Source: Candidatus Cloacimonadota bacterium
GTDB taxonomy: Bacteria; Cloacimonadota; Cloacimonadia; JGIOTU-2
Assembly: GCA_016932035.1 (NCBI GenBank)
Contig: JAFGDR010000013.1
Coordinates: 1-34,754 of the forward strand
Length of the DNA stretch: 34,754 nucleotides
Direction of reading: 5' to 3'
Shown here: positions 12,916 to 27,552 of the stretch, piece after piece
How positions within the stretch are numbered: position 1 is the first letter of the stretch
Layout of the letters: each line of letters starts with the position of its first letter
Notes under the pieces: model-generated
The model's database searches: none
Told to the model about the DNA's origin: nothing
The model's input: the letters and a program-made list of their open reading frames with translations, nothing else
Made by a program: the position numbers and the translations under genes

Positions 12916-14034
12916 TTATTTGAATAGGATTTTTATAACATCAATTGTTTTTTCGATATCATTTTCATTATTATAGAGATGAAAGGAAAAACGAAGATTG
13001 CCTTCCCTGCATGAGCAGAGTATTTTATTGTCCTGTAATTCACGGTGAACTTTTGCTGCATCCGGTACATGCACAGCAACAATTGGTGATCTCCTCTTTC
13101 CTCCTTCACTTACAATCTTCAATCCAAGTGATTTACACTCAGCGGTAAAATTCTGAGCTAATCCAAGCGCGTGATTCTGAATATTCCTGATACCGATTTC
13201 AGCAAGGAGAGAAACGGATGCATGCATTGCAAAAAGTGCCTGGTACGGATAGCTGCCGATTTCAAATCGAGAGGCATTTTCCGGTTCAGGAATGTCATAT
13301 TGCTGAACATTCGTAAAATCGAGGGTTTCTAAAAATCTATTGAGCCATCCCTGGAAAATACTTCTGATAGGAATATTTTTTCGAACATATAAAATTCCGG
13401 TTCCAGTGGGAGAGAGCAGCCATTTTTGCGCTCCTGCGGAGAAGGTATCCACTCCAGATTTCTCAAGATCTGGATACATTACACCTGCTCCCTGAATGCC
13501 ATCAACTGAGAGAAGTGCATTGCGTTTTTTTGCAATTTTCGAGCATTCTTTGAGATCAATTCTGTAACCATCATAGTAGCGTATCCAGGAAGGAGCAATG
13601 ACCTTTACTCCCTCAATATCAAGATATTCTTCCCCGTCATTTTTTGTGATTACTACTTCTGCACCTCTTGTTTCCTGTCCTTTCCATGGATACACATTTG
13701 CAGGAAATTCACCGGGAGGAATGACAATCTTGTCTCCTGATTTCAAATCTATTCCCCATCCAGCCATATTAATGCCGAATGATGTATTGTTCACAAGAGC
13801 GATATCTTCAGGAGATGCTCCCAGTAGTTCTCCAACTCTTTCTTTGATCGTTACTATTTTTTCAAAGGATTCAGGCTGTGTCTGAAGGGTAGCTCCCCGA
13901 TAAAAATCCATAAAACGGTTTTGCTCGGCTATTGCTGTTTCTGGCACAACGCCTGTCGATGCAGTATTCAGATAAGTACATGTTTTAAAAATTGGAAATA
14001 ATTCTCTACGCTCTTTTTCGGTGAATATAGACAT
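12916..14034 (-). CDS. Class V aminotransferase-fold PLP enzyme
   Basis: 372 aa, fold-type I PLP enzyme of the class V group (cysteine desulfurase, isopenicillin-N epimerase relatives). Visible landmarks are YLNTASTGVVP at the N-terminus, LVNNTSFGINMAG for cofactor binding, the Asp of LLSVDGIQGAG that contacts the pyridine nitrogen, and the Schiff-base Lys in SAGAQKWLLSPTGTGILYV. It lacks an obvious desulfurase Cys loop, so epimerase, lyase or transaminase activity is likelier than cysteine desulfurase. Its ATG overlaps the stop of the upstream DUF362 gene (TAATG), which predicts translational coupling. The two are separated from the Isf gene by only 12 bases. Confidence 0.85.
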   Translation of the reverse strand: MSIFTEKERRELFPIFKTCTYLNTASTGVVPETAIAEQNRFMDFYRGATLQTQPESFEKIVTIKERVGELLGASPEDIALVNNTSFGINMAGWGIDLKSGDKIVIPPGEFPANVYPWKGQETRGAEVVITKNDGEEYLDIEGVKVIAPSWIRYYDGYRIDLKECSKIAKKRNALLSVDGIQGAGVMYPDLEKSGVDTFSAGAQKWLLSPTGTGILYVRKNIPIRSIFQGWLNRFLETLDFTNVQQYDIPEPENASRFEIGSYPYQALFAMHASVSLLAEIGIRNIQNHALGLAQNFTAECKSLGLKIVSEGGKRRSPIVAVHVPDAAKVHRELQDNKILCSCREGNLRFSFHLYNNENDIEKTIDVIKILFK

Positions 14035-15140
14035 TATTCCTCATTCATTTGTTCATCAATATTTATTAAAATATATTCTTTGTTTCCCAGGCCAATAGAT
14101 TGTCCGTAGTCTGTTTGAGTATTGCCGCTTGTGCCGCTTTGATGCAGAAATGTATCGTCCATCTCTTGGAATTTATTAACCATATCAAGACATGCTTGAT
14201 CGATAGCTACAATATTAGTAGAGGCCATGATGCCAAGATCTTCCATGAATGGTGGAGGAGCATATGGAGAGCAATCGCATACTCGCGAAATATTGGCAAG
14301 CACGTTTATATAGACCATATTCAACGAATCGCACATTCCCTTTGCATATTCACATAATCGTTCTTGGAAGATCGGTTGGGAAGTACTGGACCAGGGAACT
14401 CCAAAAGCTCGTTGCGGACATATTCCAATGCAATCTGCACAACCGATACATTTGCTCGAATCAATAACAAGAGGATTGGTCGATATGGCATCTGCCGGGC
14501 AGTTACTAACACACAACCCACATGAGATACATCGTTTAGGATTTGTCGTTGGAATGGTGGATGCATGAAGTGCCATTTTTCCTGGAATTGCAGCAAGTCC
14601 CATTGAAACATTTTTAATTGCACCACCGAAACCTGCTGAAGTATGACCTTTATAATGAGATAGAATTATAAAAGAATCATAATCATCAACACCTCTTGCA
14701 ACCTTAATTTCCTTGAAATGTTTCAGGTCAACGGGAATAGATTTTATTCCTTTTTCATCGAGAATACCGATCGGTGCGAATCCAAAACCATGATCCTTTG
14801 CAAGTTGAATGTGACTTTCTGTATAACGCCGTTTACTCACATATAATACATTCGTTTCGACAAATGTTGCATCGGTTTCCTTAACAAGTGATCTCATGAT
14901 GTCTGGTTTAATAAAGTTCTTATTGCCTTCTTCACCAAAATGCACTTTTATGGCTACTTTTCCATGAACATTATCTTTTATATTCTGATAAATGCGCAGT
15001 AATGCTTCATCGGAAATTTCCTTTGTAAAATAGACCTTCGGTAATTCCAGCTCAGCCTGCACAACTGGATCACCTGTTAAGAAGGCACTCATGGCGATAA
15101 TGGAAAAAAGTGTACCGATTGATTTTAATATTCTTTTCAT
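14034..15140 (-). CDS. Exported DUF362 protein with two 4Fe-4S clusters
   Basis: 368 aa. A DUF362 domain (about 60-190; KVAIKVHFGEEGN, YKGHTSAGFGGAIKNVSMG) is followed by a dicluster ferredoxin with CISCGLCVSNCP (Cys204/207/210/214) and CIGCADCIGICP (231/234/237/241), then a DUF362-type tail (ASTNIVAIDQACLDMV). An unusual feature is the N-terminal signal-like segment (RILKSIGTLFSIIAMSAFL, then ...VVQAE). This implies export by Sec, without the twin-arginine motif expected for a protein folded around Fe-S clusters. DUF362 proteins are uncharacterised, ferredoxin-linked and frequent in anaerobes. The gene is translationally coupled to the following class V aminotransferase. Confidence 0.88.
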   Translation of the reverse strand: MKRILKSIGTLFSIIAMSAFLTGDPVVQAELELPKVYFTKEISDEALLRIYQNIKDNVHGKVAIKVHFGEEGNKNFIKPDIMRSLVKETDATFVETNVLYVSKRRYTESHIQLAKDHGFGFAPIGILDEKGIKSIPVDLKHFKEIKVARGVDDYDSFIILSHYKGHTSAGFGGAIKNVSMGLAAIPGKMALHASTIPTTNPKRCISCGLCVSNCPADAISTNPLVIDSSKCIGCADCIGICPQRAFGVPWSSTSQPIFQERLCEYAKGMCDSLNMVYINVLANISRVCDCSPYAPPPFMEDLGIMASTNIVAIDQACLDMVNKFQEMDDTFLHQSGTSGNTQTDYGQSIGLGNKEYILINIDEQMNEE

Positions 15141-15149
15141 GCTATGATA

Positions 15150-15488
15150 CTACGGGAGATTTTTATCCTTATCAACAGATTTCAAGGTATTCGTTCGGAC
15201 AAGAGCTACATTGAAAGGATACAGTTCAGCTGTCATGATACCTTGTTTAACAGCAGGATCTTTTTTCATGTATTCCCGTGCTTCATCTTCTGATTCAGTT
15301 TCGAGAATAACAATTCCGAAATCAGATGGATCTTTTCTGATCGTTCTTCCTGCAAGAATTACGATACCTTTTTCAGTCAAACTTTGAAGCGTTTTAAAAT
15401 GTATTGATACAATTTCTTCATCTTTATCAGTCCATGCGCTATCGTCAAGAAGAGGGTTTATGAGTTTCAGTTTATACATAAATTCCAT
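15150..15488 (-). CDS. YCII-related protein
   Basis: 112 aa. The pattern YKLKLINP...IVSIHFKTLQSLTEKGIVILAGRT...FGIVILETESEDEAREYMKKDPAVKQGIMTAELYPF is the YCII/dimeric alpha-beta-barrel fold: a start strand, helix, LAGR turn and a DP-x-V motif. Members are small enzymes or accessory domains with a His-Asp pair, of mostly unknown substrate. His30 and Asp77 could form that pair. AGGAT lies upstream of the chosen ATG; a second Met three codons later is an alternative start. It sits 9 bases before the DUF362 gene and 12 bases after the EamA gene. Confidence 0.8.
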   Translation of the reverse strand: MEFMYKLKLINPLLDDSAWTDKDEEIVSIHFKTLQSLTEKGIVILAGRTIRKDPSDFGIVILETESEDEAREYMKKDPAVKQGIMTAELYPFNVALVRTNTLKSVDKDKNLP

Positions 15489-15500
15489 TGTGCTATCCTA

Positions 15501-16394
15501 CTATGTATAATTATTTGATGTCTTCTGACTGCGAGACAAGAGCATTCCTGTCAACATTAATATACAGCCGATAATACCACGCATAGACAATCCCTCGTTG
15601 AGTAAGAGCCACCCGCCAATAACAGCGAATACTGCTTCAAGACTTAAAATGAGTGCTGCGTGCGAAGAGTGCGCTTCCTGTTGCGCAATTACCTGCAAAG
15701 TAAAAGCGATACCTACAGAAAATACGCCAGCAAATACGATTGATTGCCACGCAGAAATGATTGGAGAGATGTTGATTACCTCAAATAAGAGTGCACATAT
15801 AAAACTCAATATCGAAGCAAGAGCGAATTGGAAGAATGCTAATTTAATGGGGTGAATCTTCGTCGAAAAACATCCGATAACATGCACATGCACTGCCCAG
15901 AAAAATGCTCCTCCAAGAACAAGGAGATCCCCAACAAGAACATGAATGCTCTGATTGATCGATATCAAGTATAGTCCTATTAGAGCCAGCACTGCACCGA
16001 TCCATGTTCCCCAGTATGTTTTTTCTCTCCACGCAAGACCAAGCAAAGGGACAATGATCACATATAATCCGGTAATAAAACCCGCTTTTCCGGCAGTAGT
16101 GAATACGATCCCGTTTTGTTGAAGCGAGGTTGCTGCAAAGAGCGCTAGTCCGGCAGCGACGCTTCCATATAACGTTAAATTCTTTGAAGATATAGAATGG
16201 TCGTTTTTCGACCAATGTAAGAAGTCTTTTTTAAAGAAAAGAATTGGCATAAGGGTGATTGCACCCAACGCAAAACGGATAGCATTGAAGGTGAATGGTC
16301 CCACATATTCCATCCCTGCACGCTGTGCCACAAAACCGAATCCCCATATCGCAGCGGCAATGAAAAGGAGGATATTGGCTCTCACGGCTATCAA
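15501..16394 (-). CDS. EamA/DMT-superfamily transporter
   Basis: 297 aa with ten hydrophobic segments in two EamA units: FIAAAIWGFGFVAQRAGMEYVGPFTFNAIRFALGA and later HAALILSLEAVFAVIGGWLLLNEGLSMRGIIGC. It is predicted to be an inner-membrane exporter of small metabolites; the substrate is unknown. The start is unusual: the first in-frame initiator is TTG at 16394 with no Shine-Dalgarno, and a GTG lies three codons further in. Directly upstream are three short repeats that can form alternative hairpins (see 16399-16446), so initiation may be controlled by RNA structure. Confidence 0.9.
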   Translation of the reverse strand: MIAVRANILLFIAAAIWGFGFVAQRAGMEYVGPFTFNAIRFALGAITLMPILFFKKDFLHWSKNDHSISSKNLTLYGSVAAGLALFAATSLQQNGIVFTTAGKAGFITGLYVIIVPLLGLAWREKTYWGTWIGAVLALIGLYLISINQSIHVLVGDLLVLGGAFFWAVHVHVIGCFSTKIHPIKLAFFQFALASILSFICALLFEVINISPIISAWQSIVFAGVFSVGIAFTLQVIAQQEAHSSHAALILSLEAVFAVIGGWLLLNEGLSMRGIIGCILMLTGMLLSRSQKTSNNYT

Positions 16395-16398
16395 TTCG

Positions 16399-16446
16399 GG
16401 CTGATTATTTATACCCGATCAGCTATACAATGAATACTCATCAGCC
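16399..16446 (-). promoter_or_regulatory. Mutually exclusive hairpin elements upstream of EamA gene
   Basis: In the transcribed direction the order is GGCTGAT (16446-16440), AGCTGAT (16424-16418) and ATCAGCC (16405-16399). The third element pairs perfectly with the first (7 bp) or with GCTGAT of the second (6 bp), but not both. It ends 4 bases before the TTG start, so the choice of hairpin could expose or hide the initiation region. Only sequence complementarity supports this. Confidence 0.3.
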
Positions 16447-16472
16447 AGGTCCAGTATTGACGAAAATTGTGA

Positions 16473-17003
16473 CTAGTCGTTGCACTCTCCCTGTTTTTCC
16501 ATAAATTGGTCGAAGCTGATTTGACGGTCATAGCACTTCTGGCTGATGTATTTGAGAATGTTCAAAAAGAGTTCAGATTGCAGGTAACCCGGCACAACTG
16601 TGATCATATCTGCATCTTGGGTCATAAATGCATAGGAAGGGAAACCACTTATTCCAAAAGCTGATGTGAGTTCTCTCAAGTTAAGTGTCATTCCTTTGAA
16701 CGTGACATTTTCTGTCACAGATTCAGCATTTACGCGGACTGCAATAAAATTTTCATTCATGAATGATACGACAGAAGAATCTTTGAATGTGGTCTTATCC
16801 ATCTCATGACACCAGTGGCACCAGTTTGTATAGAAGTCTATTATAACATCTTTTCCTTCGATTGCTGCAGCGGAAATTCCTTCTTCAAAATCAAACCAGG
16901 TTATGGTCTCAACCGGCATTTCTGCTTCTTCGGCATGAAGCGGAATCATGCTGAGTAGAGCAATAGTTGATACTATGAGTATTTTTTGAATTTTATGTAA
17001 CAT
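16473..17003 (-). CDS. Periplasmic thioredoxin-fold protein (CHWC)
   Basis: 176 aa. A signal peptide ends LHA (about residue 24) and a thioredoxin-like domain follows with active site FYTNWCHWCHEMD (Cys62/Cys65). The WCHWCH form is typical of DUF255/thioredoxin_7 relatives and periplasmic reductases. The cis-Pro loop is visible as GISGFPSYAFM, and LQSELFLNIL is the last helix. It probably reduces or oxidises disulfides in the periplasm. It follows the two-domain TlpA-like lipoprotein by 18 bases, so the two may form a small redox relay. AAGGG precedes the ATG. Confidence 0.85.
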   Translation of the reverse strand: MLHKIQKILIVSTIALLSMIPLHAEEAEMPVETITWFDFEEGISAAAIEGKDVIIDFYTNWCHWCHEMDKTTFKDSSVVSFMNENFIAVRVNAESVTENVTFKGMTLNLRELTSAFGISGFPSYAFMTQDADMITVVPGYLQSELFLNILKYISQKCYDRQISFDQFMEKQGECND

Positions 17004-17021
17004 TATCTTACCCTTTAATTA

Positions 17022-17891
17022 TTATCTTGGAAGATTCTCTTCAATGATTCTTTGAAATTCCGGGACATATTCGTCTGCAAATCCAATTTCCTTTTTTATA
17101 AGAATACCTTCCGGAGAAATGAAATAGGTCGTTGGAATGTTTTTGATCCCGAGTATGGAAGATACTTTTCTTTCCTCATCAAGTAATATGGGATAGGTTA
17201 TTTCTGTTGAAAAGCCATCTATAAAGTTAGTCAATACATCAGGTGTTTCAGAACTAACACCAATAATTGAAAGACCGCGATTTTTATAAGAATTGTAAAA
17301 ATCTACAAGATAGGGGATTTCAGCTTTGCACGGTGGGCACCACGTAGCCCAGAAATCAAGAATAATGAGGTTGTTAATTTCACTGAGTGTTACTTCATTA
17401 CCATCAAGATCCTTTAAAGTGAAATCGAAAGCATCAAAAAAGGATGCTTTCCCAGCTTCGATATCCTCCCATTGACTCAACTTATTTTTTATATCATTTA
17501 TGATTGAAAAAATTTCTTCTTTGTTTTTTACTCCAACAAAATAGTCCTGCACATCACCTTTACTAAATATAATAACCGTTGGTTCTCCGGGTTGTGTATG
17601 AAAACGTATCTTATTGAGGAAATCAAGATTTTTTTCCACATCCATCATCGCAGCAACAATATTGTTATCTTCTTTTTGAATCTCCTCAATAATGGTTAAC
17701 ATTTCATCACAGCTATCGCAATCTGCAGGGATGAATTCTACAATGATGAACTCGTTCTGGATCAGTTCATCAAAGTTTTCTTCGGTCATTTCAATAACTG
17801 AACTCACCTTTCCTGTGCAGCCGATTGCGGTGAGTGCTATTACAAGAATAATAAAACTGTATTTCATAATGCTCATTCTATGATCTTTCAT
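17022..17891 (-). CDS. Lipoprotein with two thioredoxin domains (TlpA-like)
   Basis: 289 aa from the ATG at 17891. This start has AGGAG at a 5-base spacing, whereas the upstream Met at 17912 has none. Lipobox LTAIGC gives lipidated Cys25. Domain 1 (about 33-140) is thioredoxin-like with CDSC (Cys58/61) in FIPADCDSCDEM and a cis-Pro in GEPTVIIF. Domain 2 (about 153-289) is TlpA/ResA-like with FWATWCPPCKAEIPYL (Cys185/188) and IPTTYFISPEG. Such proteins keep periplasmic cysteines reduced, for example for cytochrome c or metal-centre assembly. Having both a degenerate and a canonical active site in one lipoprotein suggests an intramolecular relay. The gene starts 48 bases after the FAD-subunit gene ends. 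Confidence 0.9.
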   Translation of the reverse strand: MKDHRMSIMKYSFIILVIALTAIGCTGKVSSVIEMTEENFDELIQNEFIIVEFIPADCDSCDEMLTIIEEIQKEDNNIVAAMMDVEKNLDFLNKIRFHTQPGEPTVIIFSKGDVQDYFVGVKNKEEIFSIINDIKNKLSQWEDIEAGKASFFDAFDFTLKDLDGNEVTLSEINNLIILDFWATWCPPCKAEIPYLVDFYNSYKNRGLSIIGVSSETPDVLTNFIDGFSTEITYPILLDEERKVSSILGIKNIPTTYFISPEGILIKKEIGFADEYVPEFQRIIEENLPR

Positions 17892-17896
17892 TGTGT

Positions 17897-17901
17897 CTCC
17901 T
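17897..17901 (-). promoter_or_regulatory. Ribosome binding site fixing the TlpA-like start
   Basis: AGGAG followed by five bases and ATG at 17891. The alternative start at 17912 has no such site upstream and would place extra charged residues before the signal peptide. Confidence 0.7.
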
Positions 17902-17939
17902 GGAAATTTCATTATAGTACAATGTATAATATTACGTTG

Positions 17940-18800
17940 TTACGTCAAATTGATTAGGCTTGTAAAAAGAAGTTGTTGGAGAGCTGGCAATTTATAAGCA
18001 GTTGACCAGCGAACACCAGTTTCATCTAGGATTTGCCGGGCAACTTTCCTGCTCGTATCCTTCCAGAGTTGTTCTGATATTGTCTGATTATTGAGTTCTC
18101 GTTCAAGTTCAATAAGTCTTTTGGGTACTGAGAAAAGAGCTCCAAAAGCAAGACGGATTTCTTGAATAGTGTTGTTTTCAGATTTCAGCATGATGGCATA
18201 ACTCAATCTACTGATCGAGACACCTTGTCGGCGTCCGAGTTTATAAAATGTATATTTCCATGTTTTGTCAGGTAAGGGCATAAGAATATGGGTAAGAATC
18301 TCATCTTTATAAACCTCTGTTTTATAAGGTTTGAGTAATATGGTTACGAGGGGTACGATCCTCTCTTTGGTTAATGAGCAAAGTCTCACTTTTGCATCGT
18401 ATATGAGTAGTGGAGCGATACTGTCTGCGCAAGCAGCGAGATTACAGATGTTACCTCCTATGGTGGCGACGTTTCTGATTTGGGGTGATCCAATCTTATC
18501 GACTGCCATTTTCAGAACAGGAAAGTGATTTGCAATGATATCACTTCTGCTGATTTCAGAATGTGTGCAACATGCACCAATTGTACATATATCGTTTTCA
18601 ATTCTGATTTCTCTGAGTACAGGAATATCATGAATATCAACAATATTATGTATTCCCTTGAGCTTCTTGTCTTCCTTTCTGATCTCAATGAGGAGATCGG
18701 TCCCGCCTGCGATGATCTTGCTTGTTTCACGCTGTTTACAAATAAGTTCCAGCGCTGGTTCAAGACTCGAAAATTTATGAAAAGTGTAGGTGTTGTTCAT
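17940..18800 (-). CDS. FAD-binding subunit of a xanthine-dehydrogenase-family molybdoenzyme
   Basis: 286 aa, the normal length of the medium (FAD) subunit (XdhB/CoxM/YgfM type). The FAD pyrophosphate loop is KIIAGGTDLLIEI (about 28-40) and the second FAD motif is GSPQIRNVATIGGNICNLA (about 103-121). The C-terminal CO_dehydrogenase-type domain ends with the usual helices. It carries electrons from the iron-sulfur centre to NAD or ferredoxin. Its ATG overlaps the stop of the molybdopterin subunit as ATGA, so the two are translated together. In E. coli the equivalent order ssnA-ygfM-xdhD is also found next to purine catabolic genes. Confidence 0.9.
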   Translation of the reverse strand: MNNTYTFHKFSSLEPALELICKQRETSKIIAGGTDLLIEIRKEDKKLKGIHNIVDIHDIPVLREIRIENDICTIGACCTHSEISRSDIIANHFPVLKMAVDKIGSPQIRNVATIGGNICNLAACADSIAPLLIYDAKVRLCSLTKERIVPLVTILLKPYKTEVYKDEILTHILMPLPDKTWKYTFYKLGRRQGVSISRLSYAIMLKSENNTIQEIRLAFGALFSVPKRLIELERELNNQTISEQLWKDTSRKVARQILDETGVRWSTAYKLPALQQLLFTSLINLT

Positions 18801-21154
18801 TTTTTTATCTGATGAAGGGTTTTACTGGTTTTGATCTGTTCAAGATCGAGTGGGAGGTGATAAAATCTTTTTCCCAGTGCATGGGCTACGGCATTATTTA
18901 TTGCAGCTGCTGTTATCTCGAGTGTCGGCTCACCAAGGCTTTTCGCACCAAAAGGTCCAAAGGTATCTGGATTTTCAACAAAAAATGCTTTGATTTCCTC
19001 TATATCAACACTGGTTGGTATGAGGTATTCATCAAAGTTCACATTTTTGATCTCTGCATCCTTCACGATCACTTCTTCCATGGTGCCATATCCTGCACCT
19101 TGGGCAACACCTCCGTAGATTTGACCGAGTGCACCAAGCCGGTTGATAATCTGTCCTGCATCATGAACAGCTGTGATCCTTTTAATATAAATTTTTCCTG
19201 AAGCTTTGTTTATTTCCACTTCAGCAACCTGACACCCATAAACATAGGTGAAATATGCGGGCCCCTGACCAACTTCTTCATTCCAGTCCACATCAGGTGC
19301 TTTGAACCAGCCGTATGCATTCAGATTGATGCCCTGTAAGTATGCTTTGTTGCATGCTTCTGCAAACGAAATCTCATGGTTTGTCTCTTTATGTGAGATA
19401 GAGTGTTCTGAAAATTGGAGTTGAGTTTGTTCATCGAGTTCCCATTCCTCTAAAAGCATTTGCTCGATTCTCTGTTTTACGATACTAGCAGCATTTTTAA
19501 CAGCTTCACCTCCCATGAGTGTGGAGCGAGAAGCGACAGTTGGTCCGCCATCGGCAATCCTGCTTGTATCTTGTTCGAGATAATATATTTCATCGGGTGA
19601 GATCCCAAGTACTTCAGCAACTACCATGGAGAAGGTCATGCGCAATCCCTGACCGTTTTCTGCAAGTCCGTTTATAAGATATACACTACCGTCATTCTGA
19701 ATGCTGATCAGCGCTCCAGTTGCATCGATTCCTTCTGCACCGAGTGAACAACCTCGATAACTGCAAGCAAGGCCAATTCCCTTTCTGATGGGAGAGTCAG
19801 TTATAAAATCTTCATCATTCAATACTAGATCTTTGCTTTCGAAGCTTTTCAAAATCTTATTTCGTTCAGAATATTTTTTCTCAAAACCCGATTCTTCTGT
19901 TGCTTTATTAAGAACCTGATTCAGACTCACAACATGACTCGATAAAACCTGACCACTTGCTGTTTCAGAATTTTGTATAAGAGCATTGATCCTTCTGATC
20001 TCAAGGGGCGACATATGTAACGTTTCTGCGATTTCATCCATGAGAGATTCTTGGGCAAAGATGATCTGGGGTGAACCGAATCCTCTGAATGCACCGGTGT
20101 AGGGATTATTTGTGTATACTGCTCGCACATCGGTATAAACATGTTCAACTCTATAGGGACCGGTTGCCTGAACAACAGAGCGCCATGTAACAAAAGGACT
20201 CATCGAAGCATAAGCACCGCCATCTGCAATTATGTCAATTTTCATTGCTTTCAGTATACCTTGCTTGGTAACACCGACTTTATAACTCATCATATACGGG
20301 TGTCTTTTATAACTTTCAGTTATCGAGTCTTCTCTTGAAAGGTGAATACGAACAGGGTTTCTCACTTTTTTACATGCCACACACGCACCTATTGCAAGAA
20401 TATCCATCGTATCATCCTTACCACCAAATGAACCACCAAGTTCAGTTTGTATAATATGGATATTTGTCAAAGGTACATCCATTGCTCTGGCGACAAGTCG
20501 TCTGCATGTATAAGGATTCTGTACAGAGCCGTAAATCTTATATACATTCTTTCTAAAATCAGGAACAGCTGTAATACACTCCGGCTCGATATATGCATGC
20601 TCAACTGCAGGTGTTGTATATGTTCTTTCAAGAATAATATCTGATTCTGTAAATCCCTTTTCTATGTTGCCCTTTCTTAGGGGATAATAATTAATCAGAT
20701 TCGTTTTATTTTCAGTATGGATGATTGGAGCATCTTTTGCTAGTGATCGAGTGTAATCAGTTAGTAAAGGAAGTTCTTCGACCTCTACTTTTATGAGAGC
20801 GAGAGCTTCACTAATTGCATTTTTATCAGTCCCTACAACAAGGGCAACAACGTCTGCCGAACAATATATTTTATCATAGACAAACACGGGCTGGTCTTGC
20901 TTTACTACACCTGTTAAGAGAGAACCCGGTATGTCTTTGCTGGTAATAACAGCTTCTATTCCAGGCAGTTTTTCTGCTTTTGAAACATCGATACTTTTAA
21001 TAATACCATGAGCAATAGGGACTCTCTTTTGTCCTGTGAAGCACATGCCCGGAAAACGGATATCCGCTGCATACTGTGATCTTCCCGTTACTTTTTCGTA
21101 TGCATCTGTTCGGGGGAGCTTTTTACCTACTACGTCAAAGGTGTTATTGTTCAT
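18797..21154 (-). CDS. Molybdopterin-binding subunit of a xanthine-dehydrogenase-family hydroxylase
   Basis: 785 aa from the ATG at 21154, overlapping the end of the SsnA-like gene by 11 bases. It begins directly with the aldehyde oxidase/xanthine dehydrogenase hammerhead domain (GKKLPRTDAYEKVTGRSQYAADI). It contains the molybdopterin blocks TELGGSFGGKDD and GAFRGFGSPQ, and the catalytic Glu in FGAKSLGEPTLEITAA. No 2Fe-2S domain is present at its N-terminus, unlike XdhD. A separate small iron-sulfur subunit would be needed, and none is encoded in this window. The enzyme would hydroxylate a purine or similar N-heterocycle. The substrate is inferred only from its neighbours: SsnA-like, allantoinase-like and PLP enzymes. 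Confidence 0.93.
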   Translation of the reverse strand: MNNNTFDVVGKKLPRTDAYEKVTGRSQYAADIRFPGMCFTGQKRVPIAHGIIKSIDVSKAEKLPGIEAVITSKDIPGSLLTGVVKQDQPVFVYDKIYCSADVVALVVGTDKNAISEALALIKVEVEELPLLTDYTRSLAKDAPIIHTENKTNLINYYPLRKGNIEKGFTESDIILERTYTTPAVEHAYIEPECITAVPDFRKNVYKIYGSVQNPYTCRRLVARAMDVPLTNIHIIQTELGGSFGGKDDTMDILAIGACVACKKVRNPVRIHLSREDSITESYKRHPYMMSYKVGVTKQGILKAMKIDIIADGGAYASMSPFVTWRSVVQATGPYRVEHVYTDVRAVYTNNPYTGAFRGFGSPQIIFAQESLMDEIAETLHMSPLEIRRINALIQNSETASGQVLSSHVVSLNQVLNKATEESGFEKKYSERNKILKSFESKDLVLNDEDFITDSPIRKGIGLACSYRGCSLGAEGIDATGALISIQNDGSVYLINGLAENGQGLRMTFSMVVAEVLGISPDEIYYLEQDTSRIADGGPTVASRSTLMGGEAVKNAASIVKQRIEQMLLEEWELDEQTQLQFSEHSISHKETNHEISFAEACNKAYLQGINLNAYGWFKAPDVDWNEEVGQGPAYFTYVYGCQVAEVEINKASGKIYIKRITAVHDAGQIINRLGALGQIYGGVAQGAGYGTMEEVIVKDAEIKNVNFDEYLIPTSVDIEEIKAFFVENPDTFGPFGAKSLGEPTLEITAAAINNAVAHALGKRFYHLPLDLEQIKTSKTLHQIKK

Positions 21155-22511
21155 TTTGTAAAAACTGGAATTTCTCTCGGATTTCATCGGAAATTTCAAA
21201 TGCTTTTTTATATATTTCTTCCTCAGGATCAACCTCGAAATCTTTCATTAAATAATGTCCTTTCTTGAGTACAGTTTTAACTTGTGTTTCGCAGGCACCA
21301 TAAAGAAAATGTCCCAAGAAATTATTCTGATCGATAGGAGTATAGGGGAAATAATCAAGGATAATAAGATCTGCAGAGTCACCCTTTTGTAAAGTTGGTG
21401 TGGAGCCAAAAAATCTGCTGTGAATATCAAAGCTGTTTTTCAAAATACGAGCAATAAGATCGAAGCCGATCTCAGAGCTTTTATTGAGATGGCGACATGT
21501 TAAAAAAGCTATTTTAATCGTCTTAAGAATATTGCAGTGCATTCCGTCTGTGCCAAGAAGAAGAGGAATGTCTTTGGGGACATTTGCGATGTTCAATGTT
21601 CCTACAGCATTATTGAAATTGGAATCAGGATTATGAACAAGCGACGAATTATATTTAGAAATAAGTGAGAAATCATTGTCCATCAGATGATTTCCATGAG
21701 CAAGAAATGAGAGATCGTTCAGGAATCCAAATTTCTCAAGACGTTCGCATATTGTGAGTCCATATTTCTCTTCAGAGAAGGTTGCATCATATATATCTTC
21801 AGCAGCATGGATATGGTAACCACATCCAAGATTTTTTGTCTCTTGTTGAATATATTGAAGTGTGTCATCAGAAAGTGTAAACAGAGCATGCAAACCGAAC
21901 TGACCTTTGAAATCGGGAGTTGTACGATATTTAATGAAGGATAGATTTTCCTCAACCGATTCCTTCATGTTCTCTTTACCGTTCCTGTCAGAAACTTCAT
22001 ATGATAAGACTGCATTGAGTTCTCGGGCTTTTAACACTTTCTTTATGATCGTTTCACTTTCCTCTATAGCTTCCGGAGAAGAGTGATGATCAAAAAGTGT
22101 AAGCACTCCGTTTTTAATAGCTTCAATTGCAGTAAGTTCTGCACTTACTTCGATAGCTTTCTCACCAAGTGCTCTGTCCAGCTTCCACCAAAGATTTTCG
22201 AGTACATGAGTAAAATTATCGAGTTCTCCAGTTACCGGAAGACCTTTGCTTAAGCGTGAGTAGATATGTTCATGGAAATTGGTAAGAGGAGGAAGGACCA
22301 TACAGCCACGAGCATCGTATTCAACAAGATCATCCTCTTCAGTGATTAGTTTGTTTTGTATTACAGGTTCCCTTAAGAAATCAGAAAGGGATGTCTCTTT
22401 TATTTCAGATATAAGTTCATCCTCAATAATTATGTCACCAAAGAAGGGTTTATATGCTCCATCAATGAACTGACAGATACAGGCGTTTTTAATACGTATA
22501 GTGCTGTCCAT
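21144..22511 (-). CDS. ssnA: SsnA-like metal-dependent aminohydrolase
   Basis: 455 aa amidohydrolase-superfamily protein. Metal ligands are visible: HEH (His80/82 in TNFHEHIYSRLSKGLP), HIHAAED, AHGNH and the Asp of LGTDGMHCN. The block LENLWWKLDRALGEKAIEVSA with LFDHHSSP is characteristic of SsnA proteins (chlorohydrolase/guanine-deaminase relatives). ssnA is one of the genes reported as needed for anaerobic purine/urate breakdown in gut bacteria and is adjacent to xdhD in E. coli. The reaction is not certain, probably hydrolytic deamination or ring opening of a purine-derived intermediate. AAGGAT precedes the ATG. A possible promoter and palindrome lie in the 70-base gap from exbD. It overlaps the molybdopterin subunit gene by 11 bases. 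Confidence 0.88.
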   Translation of the reverse strand: MDSTIRIKNACICQFIDGAYKPFFGDIIIEDELISEIKETSLSDFLREPVIQNKLITEEDDLVEYDARGCMVLPPLTNFHEHIYSRLSKGLPVTGELDNFTHVLENLWWKLDRALGEKAIEVSAELTAIEAIKNGVLTLFDHHSSPEAIEESETIIKKVLKARELNAVLSYEVSDRNGKENMKESVEENLSFIKYRTTPDFKGQFGLHALFTLSDDTLQYIQQETKNLGCGYHIHAAEDIYDATFSEEKYGLTICERLEKFGFLNDLSFLAHGNHLMDNDFSLISKYNSSLVHNPDSNFNNAVGTLNIANVPKDIPLLLGTDGMHCNILKTIKIAFLTCRHLNKSSEIGFDLIARILKNSFDIHSRFFGSTPTLQKGDSADLIILDYFPYTPIDQNNFLGHFLYGACETQVKTVLKKGHYLMKDFEVDPEEEIYKKAFEISDEIREKFQFLQNEQ

Positions 22512-22523
22512 GTTTATCCTTAA

Positions 22524-22538
22524 ATCAATTCGATTGAT
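22524..22538. promoter_or_regulatory. 15-bp palindrome, candidate operator upstream of ssnA
   Basis: ATCAAT-TCG-ATTGAT: two perfect 6-bp half-sites around a 3-base centre. It is located 13 bases upstream of the ssnA start and just downstream of a TTGACA element on the same strand. This is a good position for a repressor of the molybdoenzyme genes. Confidence 0.35.
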
Positions 22539-22560
22539 AAAGAATTGAATTTTATGTCAA
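22534..22560 (-). promoter_or_regulatory. Possible promoter for ssnA and molybdoenzyme genes
   Basis: On the minus strand TTGACA (22560-22555) is followed after 15 bases by TATCAA (22539-22534). The -35 is perfect; the spacer is short. It would let ssnA and the two molybdoenzyme subunits be expressed separately from the TonB module. Confidence 0.3.
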
Positions 22561-22581
22561 TTTTATTTCAGCTAAGACCAA

Positions 22582-22986
22582 CTATTCTGGTTTTTTATTC
22601 GAAGCAATGACGATCTTTTTAATGCCCTCGACACGAGCGATGTCCATGACCTCGACGACAGTACCATGTTTGACATTCTCATCTGCTTTTAATAAAAGAC
22701 TTTTTTCTGAAGCTTCAGTGCTAAACTTTCCAAACTGGGTTCGAAGTTCCTCAAGCGTAATAGGTTCTCCATTAAAGAATATCGAACCATCAGGTTGTAT
22801 GATTATTTCCATTTCATTCTTTTCAGATGAAGCTGCTGATTCTGCGTCAGGCAGATCGAGTTTCATGCCGGGTTGCTCAATGAAGTTTGTCGATACCATA
22901 AAAAAAATCAGAAGCAGGAGCACAACATCGATGAGAGATGTGATATTGATTGTAACACTTCGCCTTTTTCGATTAAGAAGTTGCAT
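22582..22986 (-). CDS. exbD: ExbD/TolR-family biopolymer transport protein
   Basis: 134 aa from the ATG at 22986 (AGAGG upstream); a Met three codons earlier is possible. One membrane helix contains the essential Asp (INITSLIDVVLLLLIFFMVS), which conducts protons in the ExbB-ExbD motor. The periplasmic domain has the usual MKLDLPDAES, IIQPDGSIFFNGEPIT and VVEVMDIARVEGIKKIVIA blocks. The start lies inside the end of exbB (14-base overlap), so the two are translationally coupled. With exbB and tonB directly upstream, TonB function is more likely than Tol function. Confidence 0.93.
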   Translation of the reverse strand: MQLLNRKRRSVTINITSLIDVVLLLLIFFMVSTNFIEQPGMKLDLPDAESAASSEKNEMEIIIQPDGSIFFNGEPITLEELRTQFGKFSTEASEKSLLLKADENVKHGTVVEVMDIARVEGIKKIVIASNKKPE

Positions 22987-23614
22987 GATCAACATCCTCT
23001 TTATTGTGATTTATCTTTTTGACAAGGTTATTGGTTACATTTTCGATATCGAGGATAAGGTCGTCGGTTTTTCGTGTGAAATAGTTATAACATATCAGAG
23101 CGGGGATTGCAACAGTTAATCCAAAAGCTGTTGTAATAAGGGCTTCGGAAATACCACCGGACAGTGCCGATGCATTACCGACACCCTGCGAAGTGATCAC
23201 ACTAAAAACCTTGATCATACCGACAACAGTACCAAGTAGACCAAGAATGGGAGCAACCGCCGCGACCGTTTCAAGAATACCAAGCCTACTCTCGAGGGCT
23301 CGCAGTTCCTGCCGGACATTATTCTCAATTTCCTCTTTCATGCGGATATAGGGTAACTTTCTGTGATTCATTATAATCAGGATGATACGAGCAAGCAGAC
23401 TCTTATTCTGTTCACATACTGAAGAAACGAGCTTGATATCATCTTCATTTTTATAGTTCTGTACTATTTTCTCTACTTCGGGAGGAAGTACCTTATTTAC
23501 CCGTAGGGTGATAAGTTTCTCGATGATAACCGCCAGAGAAAGGATGCTGCAGATAAAAAGCGGGATCATCAAAACACCGCCTTTTGCTAAGAATACGAAC
23601 ATATCAGAAAACAT
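22973..23614 (-). CDS. exbB: ExbB/TolQ/MotA-family proton channel protein
   Basis: 213 aa with three membrane segments: GGVLMIPLFICSILSLAVIIEKL near the N-terminus, then AAVAPILGLLGTVVGMIKVF and GISEALITTAFGLTVAIPALICYNYF. The second and third helices carry the conserved GLLGTV and the TAxGL/AIP motifs. It forms a pentamer around ExbD and uses the proton gradient to drive TonB. AAGGAG stands 4 bases before the ATG. It follows tonB after 20 bases and overlaps exbD, forming a complete TonB-ExbB-ExbD operon unit. Confidence 0.95.
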   Translation of the reverse strand: MFSDMFVFLAKGGVLMIPLFICSILSLAVIIEKLITLRVNKVLPPEVEKIVQNYKNEDDIKLVSSVCEQNKSLLARIILIIMNHRKLPYIRMKEEIENNVRQELRALESRLGILETVAAVAPILGLLGTVVGMIKVFSVITSQGVGNASALSGGISEALITTAFGLTVAIPALICYNYFTRKTDDLILDIENVTNNLVKKINHNKEDVDHATS

Positions 23615-23634
23615 ATGACTCCTTTATTGTAAAT

Positions 23635-24477
23635 TTAATCTTTTTTTACGATATACGAGAATAACGAAGTAACTACCAGATAATCCTCCGGAAAATTTTC
23701 TGGAAGAGGAAGAAAGGGTGCTGAGATCGAAATGGCTCCTGTGCTTGCCTGTACAAGAGAATTATGAGCTTCTGCATGCAATACATTGAGATTTTTTAAC
23801 TCACCGCTTGGCAGAATAGTAAATCTGACAAGAACTTTTCCGTGGATCAAGCCGAGATGAGTAAATCCCGGAGGTGGATTAAGGTTGCCCTGAATTTTTT
23901 TCTTTAGATAGAGCATGTAAGGTGCAAAATCCCATTTATACGTATTAAAACTTACCCCCCCGGCATTTTCAACCTGCGAGATGATATTGGTATAATTCAA
24001 TTGCTGAGGATTATTATCACTTTCTGGTTGTGGAACGATAACCGGGGTGGGTTCTATATTCTGTAAAGCAAGATTCTGCTCCTGAGAGTCACCCGCGGTA
24101 TCATCTGCTTGTTCTGATAACGGTTCAGCTGGTTGTTCTTCTTGTGGGATTTCAGCTGATTCGATCATGGGAAACTGCTTGATCTCCGAATCTCCATCCT
24201 TATAAGGGATTTCATCTAATGGGAGTTTGTTTTCACGTTCGTCAGCTGCAGCTAAACTCTTGTCGGAAATCAAGTTGCTCTTTTCTGCGTGTTCTACTTC
24301 AGGAGCGACCGGTGTTTCTATGAATTCAAACACTATTGGCGTATCATCAAATTTAGCTTCATCTGGTTTGAGAGCAATAAGTTTCAATTCTGAAAGATGC
24401 GGAAAAAAAATAATAATGAGTAGATGCAGAAGTAGCGAAATGATCAAGGCAATCCAGAGTATTTTTTTTGAATTCAT
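23635..24477 (-). CDS. tonB: TonB-family energy transducer
   Basis: 280 aa. An N-terminal membrane anchor (ILWIALIISLLLHLLIIIFF; the SxxxH-like His is present) is followed by a long acidic and proline/glutamate-rich periplasm-spanning linker (about 45-165). A TonB C-terminal-like domain follows (about 180-280; LYLKKKIQGNLNPP, GKVLVRFTILPSGELKNLNVL, AISISAPFLPLPENFP). It transmits proton-motive energy to outer-membrane receptors or other envelope machines. A 164-base AT-rich gap separates it from the hydantoinase-type gene upstream, and exbB and exbD follow directly. No TonB-dependent receptor lies in this window. Confidence 0.9.
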   Translation of the reverse strand: MNSKKILWIALIISLLLHLLIIIFFPHLSELKLIALKPDEAKFDDTPIVFEFIETPVAPEVEHAEKSNLISDKSLAAADERENKLPLDEIPYKDGDSEIKQFPMIESAEIPQEEQPAEPLSEQADDTAGDSQEQNLALQNIEPTPVIVPQPESDNNPQQLNYTNIISQVENAGGVSFNTYKWDFAPYMLYLKKKIQGNLNPPPGFTHLGLIHGKVLVRFTILPSGELKNLNVLHAEAHNSLVQASTGAISISAPFLPLPENFPEDYLVVTSLFSYIVKKD

Positions 24478-24641
24478 GGAATATTGTTTGTCAAAAAAGG
24501 TTAAATTGTTTTGATAATAGTGCTGCTATGCATCCTGTAATAATATAACATATAAAAATTCATGAATAAAAAATTTTTTCTCTTATCACTTTCCCAGTAT
24601 GATAAAAAAAATGAGTTAAGGTTTAATTTGAAATACACTAT

Positions 24642-26066
24642 TCAATGTTCAATGGGACGACAGAACGAACCCTCACCAGCATTTCCAACAAATCGATCAT
24701 CATAGATGATCCTTTGACCTCTTAAGTATGTTGAGATGATTTTTCCCTTGAATGTTCTACCGTCGAAGGGAGAGTATTTTCCTTTTGAGTGAAGTTTGCT
24801 CTGGTCAATTACAACTAGCCCGGTTGGATCTATAAGAATAAAATCCGCATCTTTTCCCTGTTCTATCTTTCCTTTATGTGTGTTCAATCCAAATATATTT
24901 GCAGCATTTTCACAGAGAACCTTTTGGGTTTGATGAAGATCAAGTTTGCCTTTCATGAAGCCTTCTGAGAACATATAGGGGACCATAAGTTCGCTTCCTG
25001 GTATGCCGCCATAATCTGTCCAGATGTTCCCTGTCTGCTTTTCACGAGGAAAGTCACATCCTGCATGATCGGTCGTCACAAAACTGATCGTTCCAGTTTT
25101 AAGCCCATCCCAGAGCGCTCTCCTATCTTCTTTAAATTTAATTGAAGGTGCTGTTTTCAAGATACTGCCCTGCTCTTCGAAATCATCCTGTGTAAATGAA
25201 AGGAAATGAGGACAGGTCTCTGTTGTAATATATAGTCCTTTATCTTGAGCTTCTCCGATCAATTTCAAACCATTTTTGCTGCTTAGATGTACGATGTGAA
25301 AATAAGCCCCGGTTTTTTCTGCAACACGGATCACTGTTTTGATTGCTTGAACTTCTGCTTCGATGTTTCGTGTCTGGCAATAATGCTTGATCTCATTACT
25401 ATTTTCTTTTTGGAATTGTGCCCGTTTTTGCTCGATCAGGTTTTTATCTTCAGCATGAACACCAACGGGTAAATTGAGTTTTTTTGCAATAACTGCAATT
25501 TTTTCGAGTTGCTCTTCGTTAACTGAATTGAATTTCTCCATGCCCGAGATCAGGTAAGTTTTGAAGCCGATAACTCCTTCATTGTTGAGCTCATGCATGT
25601 TTCTAATGTATGAATCATCAGCAAGCTCTGTGCCGGAAACACCTCCCCAAAGAGCAAAATCGATGATCGCTTTTTTCTCGATTATCCTCAGTTTATGTTG
25701 GAGATTTGCTTTATTGATGACCGGAGGGATCGAGGTACATGGCATATCTGCAACAATCGTGATACCACCATATGCTGCGGCAAGAGTCCCTGTATAAAAA
25801 TCCTCCCGCCATTCAAAGCCCGGGTCATCATAATGTACATGCGGATCAATAGCCCCGGGCAAGACTATACAGAAATTCGCATCGATGATACCAGAAGGAA
25901 CATCATGAGATTTCCGTTTATTGCAAGTATAATCAACAAGCTCAGGTAGATTTAACGGAACATCTTCTTTCTCGATTATCTCGAGAATAGTGTCGTCAAA
26001 GAGTACATCACAAAGAACATTTCTTTTGTTTTGGGAGAGTATTGCATCGACAATTTTTTGAGGCAT
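24642..26066 (-). CDS. Allantoinase/dihydropyrimidinase-type cyclic amidohydrolase
   Basis: 474 aa amidohydrolase. The first metal motif is GAIDPHVHYDDPG (His76/His78). The position of the carboxylated Lys is in GFKTYL (Lys169). Further metal and substrate motifs are VGVHAED, HIVHLSS, TETCPHFL and TTDHAGCD. This set resembles allantoinase and hydantoinase (HyuA) more than dihydroorotase. These enzymes open cyclic ureides such as allantoin or hydantoins, which fits purine breakdown after hydroxylation and deamination. It begins one base after the stop of the PLP-enzyme gene, so they are cotranscribed. The exact substrate cannot be told from the sequence. Confidence 0.87.
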   Translation of the reverse strand: MPQKIVDAILSQNKRNVLCDVLFDDTILEIIEKEDVPLNLPELVDYTCNKRKSHDVPSGIIDANFCIVLPGAIDPHVHYDDPGFEWREDFYTGTLAAAYGGITIVADMPCTSIPPVINKANLQHKLRIIEKKAIIDFALWGGVSGTELADDSYIRNMHELNNEGVIGFKTYLISGMEKFNSVNEEQLEKIAVIAKKLNLPVGVHAEDKNLIEQKRAQFQKENSNEIKHYCQTRNIEAEVQAIKTVIRVAEKTGAYFHIVHLSSKNGLKLIGEAQDKGLYITTETCPHFLSFTQDDFEEQGSILKTAPSIKFKEDRRALWDGLKTGTISFVTTDHAGCDFPREKQTGNIWTDYGGIPGSELMVPYMFSEGFMKGKLDLHQTQKVLCENAANIFGLNTHKGKIEQGKDADFILIDPTGLVVIDQSKLHSKGKYSPFDGRTFKGKIISTYLRGQRIIYDDRFVGNAGEGSFCRPIEH

Positions 26067-26067
26067 T

Positions 26068-27552
26068 CTATGAATATTGTTTCAGCAGTCCGGTCCTGTC
26101 ATTGAATTCTCTGATGAAATCGTCCCACTGCTCATAGCTGTGCATTTTTTCTTTCCAGTAATTGTCATCATACCATTGAGCATTGAGTTCTTCGATTGTT
26201 TTTCCCTGCTGCTCAATCCACGTGAAATACTTAAGATTATGCATACGTTTCTTATCCCAGTATGAGAGCTCGAGCATATAGTCCACGGTGGTGCCCATAA
26301 GGTATCTTTCGAAATCTCCGACTGCGTTATAAGGTGTGTATTCATCAAACTTTTCATGCATCTCCTTCATACGGGATTGATAGAGTTCCATAGAGTCTGT
26401 TGCAACAGTGAAAAGTACATCATTTTCATTCATTTCATAATATTTTGCCATCTTGATCGTGCCGAGAAGGTTTGCGATTGAAGAAATCCCAAGCAAGTGA
26501 AGTTTGTCCACAAAATCTTTATCGATACCTTGGGAGATAAGGTACCTATGACCTGCAGGTTCATTGAAGAGACGCAGCAGATTCATACAGGCATTGTCAT
26601 CGATATCAGCTACCATATTCATGTTTTTTAGATTATGAATCCATGGCACATGTTTGTCACCGATGCCCTCGATGCGATGCCCACCATAACCATTGAATAA
26701 GAGCGTTGGACATTGAAGTGCTTCGCCGGCACAAACCTTTATTGTCGGATATTTTTCTCTGAGATATTCTGAACAGCCCAGTGTTCCGGCAGAACCCTGT
26801 GTGAGGAATAATCCGCTCATTCTTTGATCTGCGGTTTTAATGGTATCAAACACTTCTTCCATTGCGCGTCCAGTCACAGCATAATGCCATACAGCATTAC
26901 CAAATTCGGCAAATTGGTTGAGTACGACGATCTCATCACCACGGGCTTCTTTGAGTTCCTTTGTTTTGTCATATACTTCTTTTACATTACTTTCGCAACC
27001 GGGAGTTGGGTAAATTTCTGCTCCAACTTTTTCCAGCCACTCAAAACGTTCGCGAGACATCTCTTCAGGAAGCACTGCTATCGAAGGACATGCTAAAAGG
27101 TAAGAGTCATATGCACCACCACGGCAGTAATTACCGGTAGATGGCCAGAGGGCTTTCTGCCTGGTTGGATCAAAGTGACCACGTACAAGCTTTTCTACAA
27201 GTGGACCAAAGGTTGCACCAACCTTATGTGAACCGGTTGGGAAGTATTTTCCCAATAAAATAATTATGCGTGCTTTTACACCGGATAATTGGGAAGGGAT
27301 TTCAAGAAAATTCACTCCATCGAATCCACCACCTTTTTCTATGGGCTCGTTCTTCCAGGTTATTCTATAAAGGTTTCTTGGATGAAGATCCCATAATCCA
27401 ATTTCAGAAAGTTCCTTTTTTATTTTTTCAGGAACCTTTTCGGGATGTATCATTTCATCATAGGTCGGGATTATGATATTTCGTTCCCTGCAGCGTTGAA
27501 CAGTGTTTTCCAGGACCTTTTCATCAACAATATCAAAATTCTTTTTATTCAT
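26068..27552 (-). CDS. Fold-type II PLP-dependent enzyme of unknown reaction
   Basis: 494 aa from the ATG at 27552 (AAAGAG upstream). In-frame starts at 27579 (ATG, with AGGTG) and 27585 (GTG) are possible. Landmarks of tryptophan-synthase-beta-like PLP enzymes are FPTGSHKVGATF with Schiff-base Lys110, PSTGNYCRGGAYDS (the S-x-GN loop) and a phosphate-binding Gly loop TQGSAGTLGCS. I recall this long family as an uncharacterised 'PLP-dependent protein beta subunit'. It is clearly longer than, and different from, diaminopropionate ammonia-lyase YgeX. In purine clusters YgeX cleaves 2,3-diaminopropionate. Lying next to an allantoinase-like gene, this protein may do a comparable lyase step, which is inference only. 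First gene of the minus-strand cluster. Confidence 0.85.
   Translation of the reverse strand: MNKKNFDIVDEKVLENTVQRCRERNIIIPTYDEMIHPEKVPEKIKKELSEIGLWDLHPRNLYRITWKNEPIEKGGGFDGVNFLEIPSQLSGVKARIIILLGKYFPTGSHKVGATFGPLVEKLVRGHFDPTRQKALWPSTGNYCRGGAYDSYLLACPSIAVLPEEMSRERFEWLEKVGAEIYPTPGCESNVKEVYDKTKELKEARGDEIVVLNQFAEFGNAVWHYAVTGRAMEEVFDTIKTADQRMSGLFLTQGSAGTLGCSEYLREKYPTIKVCAGEALQCPTLLFNGYGGHRIEGIGDKHVPWIHNLKNMNMVADIDDNACMNLLRLFNEPAGHRYLISQGIDKDFVDKLHLLGISSIANLLGTIKMAKYYEMNENDVLFTVATDSMELYQSRMKEMHEKFDEYTPYNAVGDFERYLMGTTVDYMLELSYWDKKRMHNLKYFTWIEQQGKTIEELNAQWYDDNYWKEKMHSYEQWDDFIREFNDRTGLLKQYS

Follow-up and report, generated by a model that had tools for sequence, protein, structure and literature searches.

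A probable reductive urate-pathway gene cluster in a Cloacimonadota genome and the TonB cassette within it, probably a passenger

The window analyzed here, the whole 34,754-nt contig C13 of a 66-contig draft genome of 2.44 Mb (G000) from a Candidatus Cloacimonadota bacterium, carries on its minus strand a cluster of eight intact genes, in the order PLP enzyme, hydantoinase/allantoinase, tonB, exbB, exbD, ssnA, Mo subunit and FAD subunit. The cluster is probably best explained as one half of the reductive urate pathway together with a complete TonB cassette, which was acquired as a passenger and is not specially tied to the uptake of purines. The eight genes and their order agree with the original prediction. 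No gene for the 2Fe-2S subunit of a xanthine dehydrogenase-type enzyme (Xdh) was found within the cluster; candidates for it lie on contigs C27, where one adjoins ygfK, and C36.

Sixty related genomes were compared, every genome but one being a draft; G018, a member of the class, is a single contig. Because the same gene order recurs in congeneric genomes, the arrangement is not due to chance. The enzyme genes are tightly packed, with 1 nt between the PLP and hydantoinase genes, an overlap of 11 nt between ssnA and the Mo subunit gene and one of 4 nt between the Mo and FAD subunit genes. Unlike them, the TonB cassette is set apart by 164 nt on the hyuA side and 70 nt on the ssnA side. After the cluster, the same strand carries thioredoxin-like, EamA transporter, YciI-like and ferredoxin-type genes (14034–17912), which are partly conserved in congeners.

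Probable urate-pathway enzymes of the window

The reductive uric-acid pathway, which degrades urate without oxygen, was described in 2025 by Li et al. for the E. coli/Clostridioides cluster (PMC12507026), and the chemistry given below follows that paper and PMC12990295. The described set combines SsnA, YgfK, HyuA and an Xdh-type enzyme with a carbamoyltransferase (PMC12507026), and we mapped the E. coli urate cluster onto the relatives to identify the pathway genes. The genome of the window holds SsnA, YgfK, HyuA and an Xdh-type Mo enzyme with its FAD partner.

The best family for the gene at 21144–22511 (minus strand, as all genes of the cluster) is SsnA, the aminohydrolase of the pathway, with a score of 387.6 bits against NF005540, under its cut-off of 444, and 31% identity to E. 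coli SsnA; in relatives, ssnA is linked to ygfK, xdh and ygeY. The gene at 24642–26066 encodes a cyclic amidohydrolase (Amidohydro_1) that is 31% identical to E. coli HyuA, and the metal-ligand motifs DPHVH, GFKTYL, HAED, HIVHLSS and TTDHAG can be read in its sequence. It had been predicted to be an allantoinase-type enzyme and does score above the cut-off of the allantoinase model (TIGR03178, 375.7 vs. 357.9 bits), but judged by its gene context the protein is a HyuA-type hydantoinase. The Mo-cofactor subunit (18797–21154; PF01315, PF02738 and PF20256) belongs to the xanthine dehydrogenase family and is XdhA/XdhD-like, with 30% identity to E. coli XdhA and 28% to XdhD, and the FAD subunit (17940–18800; PF00941 and PF03450) is XdhB/YgfM-like; the scores of both as XdhA-like and XdhB-like proteins are below the equivalog cut-offs. 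Their 2Fe-2S partner is probably the one beside ygfK on C27.

These family assignments, the mapping onto relatives and the presence of YgfK on C27 bear out the predicted purine-catabolism-like cluster and sharpen it, as the window enzymes most likely represent one half of the reductive uric-acid catabolic pathway and serve urate catabolism. Going by homology, the Xdh-type enzyme, with Mo and FAD subunits from the window and the 2Fe-2S subunit probably from C27, would reduce urate to 2,8-dioxopurine, which YgfK (C27) would reduce further; SsnA would then open the ring, and HyuA would open the hydantoin to give 2,3-diureidopropionate.

We also considered that the flanking enzymes might act on a heterocycle other than urate, for example in the breakdown of hydantoin, pyrimidines or nicotinate. 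The hydantoinase/allantoinase and Mo-hydroxylase families are broad, the XdhA, XdhB and SsnA scores fall below equivalog cut-offs, and contig C36 of the same genome holds a second heterocycle-type catabolic cluster (L052:1573-13894), with Xan_ur_permease, amidase, CoA-transferase, XdhABC, cyclase, AllG and an FdrA-like protein. However, the urate set described in PMC12507026 is the combination of SsnA, YgfK, HyuA, an Xdh-type enzyme and a carbamoyltransferase, YgfK exceeds its cut-off by a wide margin, and in relatives the urate set is contiguous, as PLP-ygeW-ygeY-ygfK-ssnA-xdhC-xdhB-xdhA in G025 and as PLP-ygeW-ygeY-ygfK-ssnA-hyuA in G050. We therefore regard another substrate as very unlikely. 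Urate catabolism here would extend the pathway to a little-studied phylum, since the SsnA survey of PMC12507026 names other phyla and Cloacimonadota is not among them.

Remaining pathway genes and a possible pathway variant

Further pathway genes lie on contig C27 of the same genome, where xdhC stands beside ygfK and where two carbamoyltransferase genes and a carbamate kinase gene are also located. YgfK (L048:16917-19997) reaches 1314.6 bits against TIGR03315, for which the cut-off is 835.3. The two carbamoyltransferases beside it are of the OTC type (358 and 345 aa) and lie with the carbamate kinase at L048:12522-15824; this block is also present in G012 (L241) and G015 (L238/L054). Other genes of C27 include mocA, yqeB, those of a second Xdh set and one for a 403-aa threonine-synthase-like PLP enzyme.

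Both carbamoyltransferases keep the carbamoyl-phosphate motifs S-x-R-T-R and H-P-x-Q, and neither passes a model cut-off, with acetylornithine carbamoyltransferase as the nearest model (286.9 and 235.4 vs. 288 bits). An arginine-biosynthetic role would be compatible with their sequences, but their location argues against it. On the contigs of this genome that were read, there was no true YgeW, the two scores being 171 and 86 bits vs. a cut-off of 500, and YgeY had no good match in the genome, the best (E 2.8e-5) reaching 31% identity over part of the protein. The two carbamoyltransferases and the carbamate kinase would probably stand in for YgeW and YgeY. The relatives fall on both sides of this difference: a true YgeW (58-65% to that of E. 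coli) occurs with YgeY in G025, G050 and G044, and G000, G012 and G015 instead contain a pair of carbamoyltransferases with a carbamate kinase, next to ygfK, to the PLP gene or to both. In G059, the second carbamoyltransferase, the carbamate kinase and the PLP gene stand at a contig end.

For the last step, YgeX was found in only 2 of the 60 genomes and had no match at 1e-10 in G000. The PLP enzyme of the window (26068–27552; 494 aa, fold type II, PF00291) is not a YgeX orthologue, as E. coli YgeX gave no match to it at 1e-10, and both its PDB profile and its fold matches (model pLDDT 75.8) are to cysteine synthase/CBS. It has orthologues in 41 of the 60 relatives, and in relatives the gene adjoins ygeW or stands near carbamate kinase. 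With presence lists taken by hand at a bit score above about 200, the PLP gene and ssnA occurred together in 39 of the 60 genomes, alone in 2 and 5, respectively, and neither in 14 (Fisher 6e-8, ignoring relatedness). We therefore consider the 494-aa enzyme a candidate terminal lyase in the place of YgeX. The 403-aa threonine-synthase-like enzyme (L048:11238-12449) is an alternative candidate for the diaminopropionate lyase; its gene is found again within the urate clusters of G012, G018, G025, G044, G050 and G059.

On this gene content, the C27 carbamoyltransferases would take ureido groups off as carbamoyl phosphate, carbamate kinase would convert the carbamoyl phosphate into ATP, and a PLP enzyme would yield pyruvate and ammonia from the diaminopropionate that is left. 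The carbamoyl phosphate may come from both ureido groups. We tentatively propose, at somewhat less than even chances, that some Cloacimonadota use an energy-saving variant of the urate pathway, in which two different carbamoyltransferases phosphorolyse both ureido groups of 2,3-diureidopropionate and carbamate kinase gains 2 ATP from each urate rather than one; this variant would lack the YgeY hydrolase and have a cysteine-synthase-like PLP lyase in place of YgeX. No such variant appeared among the titles and abstracts listed by a literature search. Which ureido group YgeW attacks is an open question in PMC12507026, and genomes that apparently have two carbamoyltransferases and no YgeY provide a natural comparison for it, as they may hold one enzyme per ureido group.

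The TonB cassette: identity, distribution and role

The cassette consists of tonB (23635–24477), exbB (22973–23614) and exbD (22582–22995), whose products contain TonB_C (PF03544), MotA_ExbB (PF01618, 5.4e-34) and ExbD (PF02472, 6.7e-33) domains, all above the Pfam cut-offs, as in a TonB-ExbB-ExbD energiser. ExbB and ExbD score slightly better with TolQ/TolR models than with ExbB/ExbD models, all below the cut-offs, and we examined a Tol-Pal origin, in which the first protein would be TolA. This was rejected, since the PDB profile and the best fold matches favor TonB: a profile of eight orthologues matched TonB chains only (best H. pylori TonB, 1.4e-8), and the best fold match was the H. pylori TonB C-terminal domain (model mean pLDDT 65, the C-terminal part being well predicted). 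The transmembrane SxxxH motif is invariant. Across four species, the dN/dS of tonB is about 0.08-0.13, at a dS of about 3, which is near saturation. As it is intact and kept in four species, the cassette is selected for something.

The cassette lies between hyuA and ssnA in the congeners G000, G002, G003 and G005, and the ExbB of the window is 69-84% identical to those of G003, G002 and G005. In G001 and G006, hyuA and ssnA are kept, the cassette is gone, and decayed remnants of the exbD 3ʹ end are left in place. The G001 remnant (25 aa, 76%, E 4e-10) is part of a scar that spans the exbD 3ʹ end, the 70-nt spacer (22512–22581 in the window) and the start of ssnA, with 70% identity over 213 nt to the window and 87% over 199 nt to G005. 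The G006 remnant covers the same stretch with in-frame stops, and since the sequence just before the remnant is similar in both genomes, a single deletion is suggested. No window-type tonB was found anywhere in G001, G004 or G006; the contigs of G004 end inside the region, and its hyuA-ssnA junction cannot be read. In G011, hyuA and ssnA are adjacent without the cassette. The junction in G010 carries, in the position of the cassette, an open reading frame (L045:2510-3045) that reads as PyrR-like by eye.

Outside the genus, the cassette occurs apart from these enzymes. In 15 genomes of the class from other families, no uricolytic neighbors of the cassette were found in the stretches read, most of them extending no more than about 1.5 kb upstream of tonB. 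Among public genomes, a scan returned 80 cassette loci, which also included KSB1, Aminicenantes, Krumholzibacteriota and others, and the enzyme cluster stood beside the cassette in only the three congeneric loci; elsewhere near the cassette, ygeW alone matched in L223, and some partial matches resembled YgfK or regulators. Linkage to purine genes is thus confined to one genus, two genomes of which have lost it with scars, and the conserved linkage in relatives expected by the original prediction exists at the genus level only. The combination named as speaking against that prediction was found in part: the TonB module does stand alone in other families, but the flanking enzymes stay together without it (G001 and G006; hyuA-ssnA also in G011).

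The four copies of the genus group as a single clade in the ExbB tree, nested among copies from family f4 (96/91 support), and the cassette was not found in other genera of the window genome's own family. The cassette was most likely acquired once, at or near the base of the genus, from another Cloacimonadota family, if this tree position is read as the direction of transfer; alternatively, the cassette was lost repeatedly in the family. The cassette would have been inserted once at the hyuA-ssnA junction of the operon and then deleted in one sub-lineage.

The original prediction was that the TonB complex drives outer-membrane uptake of a purine, urate or cyclic ureide coupled to its breakdown. 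There is no TonB-dependent receptor in the window, and neither a receptor nor the purine permease expected just outside the cluster lies there: the three candidate receptors of the genome are on C31, C22 and C57, and a xanthine/uracil-family permease is on C36, away from the cluster. The C31 receptor is BtuB-like and adjoins B12-type ABC transporter genes; the C22 receptor is followed by its own exbB-exbD-exbD-tonB (L050:4698-10090), with a similar ExbB in nearly all relatives; and the C57 receptor has no purine neighbors. A tie between the cassette and the BtuB-like receptor, the only one traced through the 60 relatives, was rejected, as this receptor occurs in congeners with and without the cassette.

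For functional linkage to urate, xanthine or ureide uptake speak the common strand, the position inside the operon, the retention in four species, the intact TonB-type protein, and the presence of ssnA in all ten cassette-bearing relatives (10/0/34/16; Fisher 0.05, and 0.16 outside the genus). However, the window has no receptor, the traced one is independent of the cassette, the scars record loss of the cassette with the enzymes kept, cassette and purine genes are unlinked in all other families in the stretches read, and the occurrence of tonB is not associated with that of the PLP gene (Fisher 0.48, and 1.0 outside the genus). Urate is small enough for porins. We thus consider TonB-driven uptake of the pathway substrate highly improbable. 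A literature search of titles and abstracts found nothing relevant on TonB with purine uptake, and TonB, purine and xanthine are absent from the main text of an Antarctic-lake paper on Celaenobacter.

Shared regulation rather than shared function is a further explanation, with the passenger expressed from the urate operon or driving ssnA-xdh from its own promoter. Cassette and ssnA lie on a single strand with a gap of 70 nt and could be co-transcribed, and the 164-nt AT-rich gap upstream of tonB (24478–24641) contains a weak promoter-like site (24541-24514). But promoter-like sites in the region do not exceed those in shuffled sequences (23 vs. 27.6), terminator-like counts are likewise not above shuffles, and the gap upstream of tonB is poorly conserved among congeners. 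A promoter before tonB was rejected, as its signal was no higher than in shuffles, and we judge shared regulation unlikely. The preferred reading is that the cassette is a complete, self-contained passenger, which probably serves to energise an outer-membrane receptor encoded at another place in the genome, its linkage to the urate genes being most likely incidental and limited to the genus. Operon linkage, even across four species, need not mean a common task, and scars in sister species are more telling than linkage.

Comparison with known systems

The cassette resembles a TonB-ExbB-ExbD energiser in gene content, in the transmembrane motif with SxxxH and in the TonB-type C-terminal domain. 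It differs in having no adjoining receptor, and in ExbB and ExbD proteins that are nearer to TolQ/TolR models.

This genome shares with the E. coli/Clostridioides cluster (PMC12507026) SsnA, HyuA, the Xdh-type Mo enzyme with its FAD subunit, YgfK, carbamoyltransferases and carbamate kinase. In contrast to that cluster, the pathway here is split over two contigs, and the 2Fe-2S subunit lies away from its Mo and FAD partners. YgeX was not found, and the cluster has the 494-aa cysteine-synthase-like PLP enzyme; no good match to YgeY turned up, and YgfK is accompanied by two carbamoyltransferases and carbamate kinase. Finally, a TonB cassette is inserted in the cluster described here.
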